Shown here piece by piece: positions 2,029-13,289 of a stretch of DNA of 39,302 bases. The first letter of the stretch is position 1. Every line of letters starts with the position of its first letter. The notes beneath the pieces were generated by a model. The model had not been told where the DNA came from. It was given only the letters and a program-made list of their open reading frames with translations, and made no database searches. The DNA comes from Chloroflexota bacterium (GTDB taxonomy: Bacteria; Chloroflexota; Anaerolineae; Anaerolineales; Anaerolineaceae), in contig JAJXZS010000040.1 of assembly GCA_021779955.1 (NCBI GenBank), positions 7,328 to 46,629 on the forward strand. The letters run 5' to 3'. The position numbers and the translations under genes are program-made.

Positions 2029-2784
2029 TCATTCTCTAATGTGTAGAATTTCTTTGATTTTATCGAGCTGCCAATCGACGAGGATGGCGCCGTCGATGTC
2101 GAAGGTTGGCGTGGTCTGGTTGCCGCCTGCCCAGGCGCGGACCTGTTCGTCAGCGCCGGGGGTCTCGATGATGTTCACTTCGGTGTATTTGATCTTGTGA
2201 TCGGCAAACCAGCGGCGGGCTTGCTTGCAATCGGGGCACCACGGCGTGCAATACATCACGATGCCGCCGTGAGGCAAAGGAACCGGCGCGGGTTTGGGCT
2301 CTTCGGGGCGATTGCGCACAGTCGGGTCGATCTCGCGGATTGCGGCGCGCAGCACTTCGTTGGAGGGCTGGTCATTGATATCATGGACATCCACATACCG
2401 GATGATGCCCTCGCGGTCGATCACGAAGATGGCGCGCTCGGTATATCCTTCCTCGCGCAGCACGCCGTACTTTTGAGCGACAGCGCCGTGCGGCCAGAAG
2501 TCGCTGAGCAGCGGATACTTGTGAATCCCGCCCAAATCGTCAGCCCACGCAACGAGGGTCGGAAGAGGATCAGTGCTGATACCCAGAACCTGGGTGTCCA
2601 ATCCCGTGAATTTGGTGTATTCCACCTCGTACAACGGGATCTGAGCCGTTCATATGGGCGTCCAGGCTTGAGGGAAGAACGCCAGGACGACGTTCGAGCC
2701 GCGCAGGTCGCTGAGCGTTACCGTCTTGCCGAGATGCGAGGGGAGCGTAAAGTCAGGTGCAGGGGTTCCAACAGAAAGGGCCAT
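2029..2784 (-). CDS. Selenocysteine peroxiredoxin-glutaredoxin fusion (TGA recoded)
   Basis: Predicted thiol/selenol peroxidase that reduces H2O2 or organic peroxides, with a built-in reductase domain. Translation from ATG at 2784 (AAGGAG ten bases upstream) runs 44 codons to TGA at 2650-2652, then stays open for 206 more codons to a real stop. The TGA falls exactly where peroxiredoxins keep the peroxidatic residue: PQAWTPI-TGA-TAQIPLY fits PxxxTxxC with Sec45. No Cys exists anywhere else in the peroxiredoxin domain (about 1-165), so the TGA residue is its only possible redox centre. The conserved Arg is likely that of [13 protein letters not shown] Pro-rich linker leads to a glutaredoxin-like domain (about 173-251) with C183-P-D-C186 and the cis-Pro segment TTPTFD. 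A SECIS-like hairpin follows the TGA. The alternative is a Cys-to-stop mutation. A possible -10 (TAGAAT) lies at 2807-2812. Confidence 0.85.
2601..2640 (-). promoter_or_regulatory. Candidate bacterial SECIS hairpin
   Basis: On the minus strand, nine bases after the TGA, ATCCCGT pairs with ACGGGAT (seven perfect pairs). Inside lies GGTG-GAATA-CACC, separated from the outer stem by internal loops of seven and six bases. The apical loop is about 29-33 bases from TGA, within the usual 16-37 range, and begins with G. An alternative inner pairing is TGTA/TACA. No folding program was run. Confidence 0.6.
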
Positions 2785-2905: not shown

Positions 2906-2919
2906 GAATTCGAAAATTG

Positions 2920-3105
2920 AACCACGTTAGGTGAGGCGTCTGCAAACGAAAGAGGCCATCGCCCTGAAAAGTCGAAAGACTCCAAAGGGTAAAACAGGAA
3001 AAGCCGGATTAAGGCGAAACCCCAGATGGCTGGGAACAAAATCCCTAAGCGATGCAGTGCTAAAGCTCAACCAGAGTGGAAGTATCTGAGCAATCAGATA
3101 CGGGG
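2920..3105 (+). ncRNA. M-box (ykoK leader) magnesium riboswitch
   Basis: This leader senses Mg2+ and normally turns off Mg2+ transporter genes when Mg2+ is plentiful. The conserved blocks occur in order: GTTAGGTGAGGC at 2926, then a segment reading GTCGAAAGACTCC followed by AAAGGGTAAAACAGGAA, and finally GCAGTGCTAAAGCTC near 3053-3068 with CCAGAG after it. These match the M-box core closely. A promoter lies upstream and an intrinsic terminator follows, so the complete switch is present. No intact Mg2+ transporter follows, which is unusual. Other riboswitch classes do not share the combination of GTTAGGTGAGGC and GTGCTAAAGCTC. Confidence 0.88.
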
Positions 3106-3115
3106 TCAAGTTTTC

Positions 3116-3144
3116 CCTCCCTGGCTCACGCCAGGGAGGTTTTT
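3116..3144 (+). terminator. M-box expression-platform terminator
   Basis: CCTCCCTGGC (3116-3125), loop TCAC, GCCAGGGAGG (3130-3139), then TTTTT. A perfect ten-pair stem placed directly after the riboswitch, as expected of a transcriptional OFF switch. Confidence 0.88.
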
Positions 3145-11108: not shown

Positions 11109-13289
11109 ATGGTGTCCACTATCTCTTCCAAACCGCTCACCAGGTCCATTGATCCCAAACGCGAGGCATTTTGCGCAGATCTGCTTGCGAAAATGACGCT
11201 CGAGGAAAAAGTTGGGCAGATGGTGCAGGCAGACCTTTCGTGGCACGAAGACGTCAGACAGCTCACCCGTGAGGGGAGGATCAGTTCTTTATTCACCATC
11301 CGTGATCCAAAGGTCATCAATCTCTACCAGCACATTGCGGTGGACGAATCGCGATTGGGCATCCCTTTGATCATCGGCAACGACATCATCCACGGCTTCA
11401 GGAGCATCTTCCCGATCCCGCTGGCGTTGGCATGCACCTGGGATCCCGAGCTTGTTGAGCAGGTGGCGCGGGCATCGATCACCGAAGCCATGGCTTGCGG
11501 CACCACCTGGAATTTTGCTCCCATGGTCGATATCAGCCGCGACCCGCGTTGGGGAAGGGTTGCCGAGGGTTCAGGAGAAGATGCTTATTTGAGTTCGACT
11601 TTGGGGGCAGCCTGGATTCGCGGCTACCAGGAGGCAAGAGATGCAGACGGGCGGTCAGCCGCCGCTTGCGTGAAGCATTATGCCGCCTACGGCGCCTCAG
11701 AATCGGGCAAGGATTACAACTCGGTGGATATGTCGGAGCGGCGCCTGCGCGAGGAGTACCTGCCTCCGTACCGTGCTGCCGTGGAAGCGGGGGTACAAAC
11801 GCTGATGACCTCTTTCAACGACTTGAACGGCGTGCCTGCGAGCGCGAATTCCTTCCTTATTAAGCGAATTCTGCGCGAGGAATGGGGCTTCGAAGGTGTT
11901 GTGGTCAGTGACTACGATGCGATCGGAGAACTGGTGATGCACGGTTTTGCCCGCGACCACAAGGAAGCCACGCTGCGCAGCGTGCTTGCCGGCGTGGACA
12001 TGGACATGATGGGCAACGCCTATCATTTTCACCTGGCCGCCCTGGTCCGTGAAGGGAAAGTAGCCGAAACAGTATTGGATGAAGCGGTGCTGCGCATCCT
12101 TGGATTGAAATACGACCTGGGTCTTTTCGAGCACCCATTTGTCGACGAGGCAGACGCACATTCGGCGCTCTCCCTGCCCGAATCCCTCGATCTTGCCGCA
12201 AAAGCAGCCGCACAAAGCATTGTTCTGCTTAAGAACGAAGGCGGCATTCTGCCCCTGAACGCATCTGCAAAGACGGTTGCGCTGATCGGGCCGCTGGCGA
12301 AGGAACGCCAGAGCCTGCTCGGCTGCTGGTGTTTCGACGGGCGGGTTGAAGATGTGGAGACTTTGGCCGAGGTGCTCGAACGCGACCTTCCTGCGGATAC
12401 AAATTTGATTGTCGAGCAGGGCTGCGCCATCGATGGCGGTGATCTCGACCTCGCAGGCGCTTTGAAGGCAGCAGCCCTGGCCGATGTAGTGCTCCTTGCC
12501 CTGGGTGAATCCGACACGATGAGCGGCGAGGCGCACTCGCGGGCGCACCTGTGCCTGCCCGGGCGCCAGCAGGAACTGGCGGATGCCTTGGCTAAATGCG
12601 GCAAGCCCGTTGTGGCGCTGGTGTTTGCCGGCCGTCCCCTGGTGATGACGAAGCTGGTCGAAGAAACTCCGTCGGTGGTGATGGCCTGGCACGGAGGAAC
12701 CCGTGCAGCCCGGGGGGTGGCGGATGTGCTCACGGGAAAGGTCAACCCTTCTGGCAAGCTGAGCATTTCCTTCCCGCGCAGTGAAGGGCAAATTCCGGTC
12801 TATTACGCCCACAAGAACACAGGGCGTCCTGTCGAAACGAGCGGAACAGTGCAGTTCAATCAGGCTCATAAATCCTCCTATCTCGACGAGGAAAATGCGC
12901 CGTTGTTCCCCTTTGGCTTCGGGCTGAGTTATGCGCAATTCGACTATTCCGGGCTGAAAGTGTTGACGCCCCAGGTCAGGAAAAACGAGACATTGAGAAT
13001 TTCCGCGCGAGTCACCAATTCCGGCAAATGGCACGGTTCCGAGATCGTTCAGCTGTACGTGCGCGACCTGGTGGGCGTGGTCACCCGCCCGGTGAAAGAG
13101 CTGGTCGATTTCCGCAAGATCGCGCTGGCGCCAGGCGATAGTCAGACCGTTGAGTTCGAGCTGCCGGCAGGATGCCTTTCGTTCCTGGATGAGAACCATC
13201 ATCCGGTGCTCGAAGAGGGCGATTACAAGGTATGGATCGGGCCAAACTCGGCTGAAGGATTGGAAGGCCGGTTTGAACTCATCGATTAA
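11109..13289 (+). CDS. GH3 family beta-glucosidase/xylosidase, BglX-like
   Basis: Retaining exo-beta-glycosidase, 726 residues, no signal peptide. The order is GH3 N-terminal barrel, GH3 C-terminal alpha/beta sandwich and a fibronectin-III-like end. Barrel motifs are GNDIIHGFRSIFPIPL, FAPMVDISRDPRWGR, CVKHYAAYGA and EYLPPYRAAVEAG. The nucleophile is Asp in VVSDYDAIGEL. The sandwich domain has QSIVLLKNEGGILPL and LGESDTMSGEA; the latter resembles the acid/base region GE...SGEA. The end domain includes VQLYVRDLVGVVTRPVKEL. ATG 11109 follows AAAGG. It probably hydrolyses oligosaccharides brought in by the divergent transporter. Whether it prefers glucose, xylose or another sugar cannot be decided here. 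Confidence 0.94.
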   Translation: MVSTISSKPLTRSIDPKREAFCADLLAKMTLEEKVGQMVQADLSWHEDVRQLTREGRISSLFTIRDPKVINLYQHIAVDESRLGIPLIIGNDIIHGFRSIFPIPLALACTWDPELVEQVARASITEAMACGTTWNFAPMVDISRDPRWGRVAEGSGEDAYLSSTLGAAWIRGYQEARDADGRSAAACVKHYAAYGASESGKDYNSVDMSERRLREEYLPPYRAAVEAGVQTLMTSFNDLNGVPASANSFLIKRILREEWGFEGVVVSDYDAIGELVMHGFARDHKEATLRSVLAGVDMDMMGNAYHFHLAALVREGKVAETVLDEAVLRILGLKYDLGLFEHPFVDEADAHSALSLPESLDLAAKAAAQSIVLLKNEGGILPLNASAKTVALIGPLAKERQSLLGCWCFDGRVEDVETLAEVLERDLPADTNLIVEQGCAIDGGDLDLAGALKAAALADVVLLALGESDTMSGEAHSRAHLCLPGRQQELADALAKCGKPVVALVFAGRPLVMTKLVEETPSVVMAWHGGTRAARGVADVLTGKVNPSGKLSISFPRSEGQIPVYYAHKNTGRPVETSGTVQFNQAHKSSYLDEENAPLFPFGFGLSYAQFDYSGLKVLTPQVRKNETLRISARVTNSGKWHGSEIVQLYVRDLVGVVTRPVKELVDFRKIALAPGDSQTVEFELPAGCLSFLDENHHPVLEEGDYKVWIGPNSAEGLEGRFELID

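Follow-up and report, generated by a model that had tools for sequence, protein, structure and literature searches.

A predicted selenocysteine-containing peroxiredoxin-glutaredoxin fusion encoded in Anaerolineae genomes

Results

The window, a 39,302-nt stretch of DNA from a member of the Anaerolineaceae (class Anaerolineae, Chloroflexota), carries on its minus strand a frame of 251 codons plus stop (positions 2029–2784), which runs from an ATG at 2784–2782 to a TGA at 2031–2029 and contains one internal stop. This internal TGA (2650–2652, minus strand) is codon 45, lies in the context P38-QAW-T42-PI-U45 and is followed by 206 codons. Reading the frame confirmed the first-pass annotation, which had placed the sole in-frame stop at the peroxidatic codon of a PxxxTxxC motif (PQAWTPI-TGA) and had described the chain as intact for 206 codons beyond it. 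Its description of the peroxiredoxin domain as free of Cys also held: the only Cys residues in the 251-residue protein are C179, C183 and C186, all in the glutaredoxin part. TGA is an ordinary stop in the window, where it ends 6 of 24 listed ORFs. The mechanical ORF list gives the gene as a 201-aa ORF (2029–2634, minus strand) that starts at a TTG six codons downstream of the TGA, the headless product to be expected from a caller without Sec decoding; the forecast that automated annotation would begin at 2634 and lose the active site was therefore correct.

Pfam assigned residues 5–131 (2392–2772, minus strand) to the AhpC-TSA peroxiredoxin domain (135 bits, over the cut-off) and residues 175–232 (2089–2262, minus strand) to Glutaredoxin (PF00462, 49 bits against a gathering score of 22.9), in agreement with the C-terminal CPDC glutaredoxin domain proposed earlier. 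The glutaredoxin motif C179-TPW-C183-PD-C186 (2227–2250, minus strand), which includes the CxxC motif as CPDC, belongs to a CxxWCxxC pattern kept in 72 of 73 fusion rows (30 class loci and 43 from the 80 best loci in a scan of named-species genomes). P38, T42, residue 45 and the catalytic Arg, R117, were invariant (n = 39 aligned sequences); alignment A1 held 27 of the 30 class loci, and A2 the window protein with 38 of the 43 scan fusions. The AlphaFold2 model had a mean pLDDT of 94.4 and a pTM of 0.85. Both sequence and fold pointed to AhpE of Mycobacterium tuberculosis (Rv2238c) as the nearest relative: a sequence search of the PDB ranked it first (9.5e-30), and the top 12 matches of the fold search of the PDB were all AhpE entries. 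PxxxTxxC/U, the catalytic Arg and the AhpC-TSA fold, which characterize AhpE-like peroxiredoxins, were all found. The protein scored below the curated cut-offs of the PrxU equivalog NF040737 (61.5 against 270 bits) and of mycoredoxin TIGR02200 (49.4 against 89.5 bits), so membership of either model was rejected, and none of its 24 NCBIfam matches reached its own cut-off. The order of the domains, peroxiredoxin then glutaredoxin in one chain, is that of the peroxiredoxin-glutaredoxin hybrid peroxidase of Haemophilus influenzae (PDB 1nm3), which was fold match 49 by rank over 263 columns. Unlike the window protein, 1nm3 is a Cys enzyme; it is 18% identical, and its domain packing differs as far as an rmsd of 11.7 Å can tell. 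We take 1nm3 to belong to another peroxiredoxin subfamily, as its PDB title also suggests.

Homologues were collected from 396 sampled genomes of the class and from the named-species scan. Full-length matches with a TGA inside were found in 31 of the 396 class genomes, the window's own included (partial matches were outside the count), and the others were 50–66% identical to the window protein; this recurrence indicates that the combination of Sec peroxiredoxin and glutaredoxin is not a one-off. Loci were read for 30 of the 31, and all 30, again with the window's own, had TGA at the same aligned codon. The best 80 scan loci comprised 43 fusions (L050–L092), 39 with TGA and 4 with Cys (L051, L052, L053 and L067), a ratio that is no census because one of the two scan patterns spells Cys. 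Of the 73 rows together, 69 had TGA and 4 had Cys at the aligned codon, so that the homologue check returned TGA or Cys in every row; dropping four proteins identical between the sets left 69 distinct fusions (65 TGA, 4 Cys) for the tree and RNA counts. Under table 11 the gene is interrupted, as a pseudogene or a sequencing error would be: the TGA would then either end translation genuinely or be a miscalled Cys codon, leaving a relic frame downstream. We rejected this explanation, whose probability is practically negligible: 65 distinct fusions, drawn from many genomes, share a TGA at this codon (best 80 scan loci included), among them 30 of 30 class loci and 39 of the 43 scan fusions, the frame is conserved on both sides, and the RNA downstream is constrained (see below).

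The fusion was patchy within the host family, with a full-length match in one of ten other sampled genomes (G271). Among the best 80 scan loci, fusion records were labelled Chloroflexi or Anaerolineae except for two TGA fusions, L087 and L090, from MAGs labelled Acidobacteria and Actinobacteria, respectively, perhaps through transfer or misbinning; the L087 genome (G433) contains SelA and SelB. The same 80 loci also included 37 stand-alone AhpE-like peroxiredoxins (L093–L129), of which 27 (L093–L115 and L118–L121) have TGA at the same codon. These stand-alone TGA forms are in records labelled Acidobacteria, Bacillota, Deltaproteobacteria, Eremiobacterota and others, which indicates a wider distribution for the Sec form than for the fusion. 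In one of them, L113, the Sec peroxiredoxin frame is extended from position 66 by a long additional part, up to a further TGA that follows GG; this part is, we presume, reminiscent of the glycine/proline reductase selenoprotein B family, and L113 is possibly a different Sec fusion.

No conserved neighbourhood emerged around 44 loci, searched to a distance of about 2 kb at most, the largest cluster being an ABC-type ATPase at 7 loci. Beside the fusion gene, an M-box (magnesium) riboswitch lies on the plus strand at 2916–3139 (127.7 bits), with a terminator-like hairpin at 3116–3139. Downstream of it there are frame scraps alone (e.g. LAGMLVAYELLTQRPRILLLENGLGFADRQL), followed by a gene for an ABC-type ATPase in the opposite orientation, and the M-box therefore has the appearance of an orphan riboswitch whose target has decayed.

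The first-pass annotation had called for a search of the same genome for the Sec genes, and all four were found in the host assembly (G000, 2.83 Mb in 56 contigs). A tRNA-Sec with anticodon tca was located on contig C31 at 12269–12361 (73 bits against a gathering score of 47), and SelA matched with 550 bits. The main part of SelB matched with 324 bits and its C-terminal part was in another frame, a break that coincides with a run of ten N in the assembly. SelD (L018, G000:C27:21117–22049, 346 bits) contains one in-frame TGA in the motif KCAGU and is likely a second selenoprotein of this genome. Among the 39 TGA-fusion genomes from the best 80 scan loci, 30 had a strong tRNA-Sec (E under 1e-12) and a further 6 had SelA or SelB over the cut-off. 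The remaining 3 had no Sec gene over the cut-off: G426 had a SelB piece alone, below the cut-off, and no Sec gene match was found in G436, the genome of L090, or in G437. Of the 31 sampled class genomes with the fusion, 25 had a strong tRNA-Sec (E under 1e-11), but a tRNA-Sec match over the gathering score was found in 324 of all 396 class genomes, so that co-occurrence with the fusion alone says little. Between TGA and Cys fusions, a strong tRNA-Sec was present in 30 of 39 and 1 of 4 genomes, respectively (Fisher p 0.059; 43 genomes, best 80 scan loci), three of the four Cys rows representing one lineage.

Bacteria show some stop-codon readthrough, and codon 45 might accordingly be read as another amino acid (e.g. 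Trp), or as Cys, rather than as Sec. All four homologues without TGA among the best 80 scan loci have Cys at this position, the peroxiredoxin motif requires Cys or Sec, the genome holds the full Sec machinery, and TGA is a normal stop in the window. On these grounds we rejected this reading too, and regard it as extremely improbable.

The search for a SECIS element downstream of the TGA likewise gave a positive result. In the mRNA, a SECIS-like stem-loop (2601–2640, minus strand) consists of a 7-bp lower stem (2634–2640 paired with 2601–2607), a 4-bp upper stem and a 5-nt loop (2618–2622). The loop starts with G, 27 nt after the TGA, and the 54 nt downstream of the TGA fold at -18.2 kcal/mol. 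Its first two nucleotides are GA, against the usual GG or GU. As given in passages of PMC13188914, bSECIS elements have a loop of 3–9 nt, an upper stem of 4–16 bp, a G in the first two loop positions, 16–37 nt from the UGA, and an energy of at most -7.5 kcal/mol; the window stem-loop passed a strict filter of this kind.

We then compared the 54 nt after the TGA with synonymous-codon shuffles that keep the protein. Excess structure was evident in the 65 distinct TGA fusions (mean z -2.39, with 91% of them under -1) and in the 27 stand-alone TGA forms (mean z -1.89), whereas the 8 Cys homologues (4 fusions and 4 stand-alone forms) had none (mean z +0.59). For the window itself z was -2.43, and 1.25% of 2000 synonymous shuffles were as low. 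Lower-stem pairing reached 0.756 in the fusions; swapping the arms between sequences gave 0.687 (highest value in 2000 swaps, 0.714), and sliding them by up to 3 columns gave no more than 0.659. In the stand-alone forms this register was unsupported, with 0.434 before and 0.432 after the swap, and pairing was better two columns further on (0.661). Because arm swapping loses relatedness, the codon shuffles and the contrast with the Cys forms carry the weight here. Compensatory changes were also visible, e.g. ATGCCC with GGGCAT in L025. Applied to the minimum-energy fold, the strict filter was passed by 37 of 65 TGA fusions, 12 of 27 stand-alone TGA forms and 1 of 8 Cys homologues (L067), and was failed by 28 TGA fusions and 15 stand-alone TGA forms; synonymous controls passed at 0.16–0.18 (0.177 for the TGA fusions). 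These results indicate a stem-loop constrained beyond the protein sequence.

Taken together, the Sec genes, the SECIS-like stem-loop and the TGA/Cys homologues support the earlier proposal of Sec at codon 45, and we conclude, with a probability of about 0.95, that the gene at 2029–2784 encodes a Sec-containing peroxiredoxin-glutaredoxin fusion. A dual output might be imagined, in which the gene yields, besides the Sec protein, a separate fragment that contains the glutaredoxin and has a function of its own, arising from UGA termination or an internal start near 2634. Termination at UGA does compete with Sec insertion in general, and the TTG six codons after the TGA could serve as such a start, but an internal-start fragment would be without the peroxiredoxin catalytic helix, and we consider a dual output highly unlikely.

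The relation of the TGA fusions to the Cys fusions was assessed in a quick maximum-likelihood tree (active-site residue masked, SH-aLRT only, 13 of the 37 stand-alone loci included). The Cys fusions were nested among the TGA fusions in two places. L051–L053 grouped with the window protein, L050 and L054 (99% SH-aLRT); their genomes (G397–G399) gave no match for tRNA-Sec (E at most 3e-8), SelA (1e-30) or SelB (1e-45), and the z of their stem-loop region was +1.5 to +1.75. The simplest reading of these sequences is that this one lineage, a sister of the host's, probably lost the Sec trait, replaced Sec with Cys and let the stem-loop decay. L067 is a Cys form whose genome (G413) nevertheless has both tRNA-Sec and SelB, though without a SelA match. 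Its RNA also passes the SECIS filter, and L067 is perhaps a recent Sec-to-Cys change.

Most of the fusions have a second Cys in the peroxiredoxin part, 31 residues after the peroxidatic residue (66 of 73 rows, best 80 scan loci included). The window protein has Thr at +31, and six other rows also lack this Cys. Having no Cys at all before the glutaredoxin motif is unusual for the fusion family (5 of 73 rows, best 80 scan loci included). In the AlphaFold2 model the +31 position is near the start of helix 74–83, a placement that we presume to resemble that of the resolving Cys in Tpx-type peroxiredoxins. AhpE has Thr at the position aligned with the +31 Cys of the window protein's relatives.

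Discussion

The two halves of this protein have each been described before, as the first-pass annotation had stated and as passages of PMC13188914 and PMC8769201 bear out. Sec peroxiredoxins (TxxU) are treated as a standard selenoprotein family in the sections consulted of PMC13188914, PMC2398784, PMC1088965 and PMC1794560; like these proteins, which include PrxU of Eubacterium acidaminophilum, the window protein has Sec at the peroxidatic position of PxxxTxxU (passage of PMC13188914). It differs from PrxU in its low NF040737 score, and the TxxU accounts, in the sections consulted, mention no glutaredoxin fusion. The H. influenzae hybrid Prx5 (1nm3; pgdX) is described as peroxiredoxin-glutaredoxin in a passage of PMC8769201. 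According to the corresponding section of PMC2398784, Global Ocean Sampling data include selenoproteins of the peroxiredoxin family that are fused with further domains bearing conserved Cys; the partners given there are a PP2C-type phosphatase, secretin-like and unknown domains, not glutaredoxin. Within the excerpts matched by full-text searches of the PMC library, we found no report of a Sec peroxiredoxin-glutaredoxin fusion. Judged by its sequences, this is a real selenoprotein family and a new combination of known parts. Excerpts on this lineage report Sec in Anaerolineales for formate dehydrogenase (PMC4959059) and in the class mainly for that enzyme (PMC4959059, PMC5736913), and the retrieved text of the 2026 review PMC13188914 has 0 occurrences of "Chloroflex" or "Anaerolin".

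In the mechanism that we propose, SelA, SelB, SelC and SelD would insert Sec at UGA codon 45, directed by the stem-loop just downstream, to give an AhpE-like Sec peroxiredoxin that a linker connects with a dithiol glutaredoxin domain. As a selenolate, residue 45 would reduce H2O2 or an organic peroxide and become a selenenic acid, and the protein is very probably a peroxidase. One CPDC cysteine might attack the selenenic acid directly, or after a small thiol has made a mixed selenenylsulfide, and the other would resolve the bond. The oxidised CPDC might then be recharged by thioredoxin/thioredoxin reductase or by a small thiol; the host genome contains a thioredoxin reductase (402 bits), and its BshA matches, sought as a source of bacillithiol, were all under the cut-off. 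In most relatives the +31 Cys probably makes a selenenylsulfide with Sec first, the bond then being passed to the glutaredoxin. The lack of this Cys in the window protein suggests a one-Cys manner of working, as in AhpE, with the glutaredoxin or a small thiol used directly.

Reduction of Sec by the fused glutaredoxin domain, within the chain or across subunits, seems to us the likelier course on these predictions, although not by far. The alternative is that Sec is present and recycled by thioredoxin or a small thiol, the glutaredoxin domain serving other substrates such as glutathionylated or mixed-disulfide proteins. The +31 Cys of most rows could resolve Sec without any glutaredoxin, and similar TGA peroxiredoxins occur without a fused domain; the window protein, however, has no second peroxiredoxin Cys, and the fusion is kept in 69 distinct proteins (best 80 scan loci included) with a nearly invariant redox motif. 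In M. tuberculosis, moreover, a separate glutaredoxin-like protein reduces AhpE: passages of PMC4360819 describe its sulfenic acid as reduced by mycoredoxin-1 directly or via mycothiol. We consider the alternative unlikely, if worth keeping in mind. AhpE resembles the window protein in its one-Cys type and its glutaredoxin-like reductant, and differs in using Cys and a separate reductase where the window protein would use Sec and a fused glutaredoxin.

Reduction by the fused domain leads to a broader and tentative proposal, which we hold to be possible but somewhat doubtful: a self-contained selenium peroxidase, a one-Sec AhpE with its own glutaredoxin as dedicated resolving partner. The fused domain would have made the +31 Cys dispensable, allowing its loss several times, and loss of Sec would have been answered by a switch to Cys, as in the sister lineage. 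If this is true, peroxide attack, resolution and recharging would all take place in one chain.

The bacterial selenoproteome gains a fusion family whose members, because an ORF call without Sec decoding starts past the active site, are easily annotated as headless fragments. The family also lends itself to a natural comparison at a single active site, where one fused frame occurs with Sec or Cys and with the second Cys present or absent, so that the benefit of selenium to a peroxiredoxin becomes testable with real orthologues. A cultured relative, Ornatilinea apprima, has the TGA form (L075, among the best 80 scan loci).
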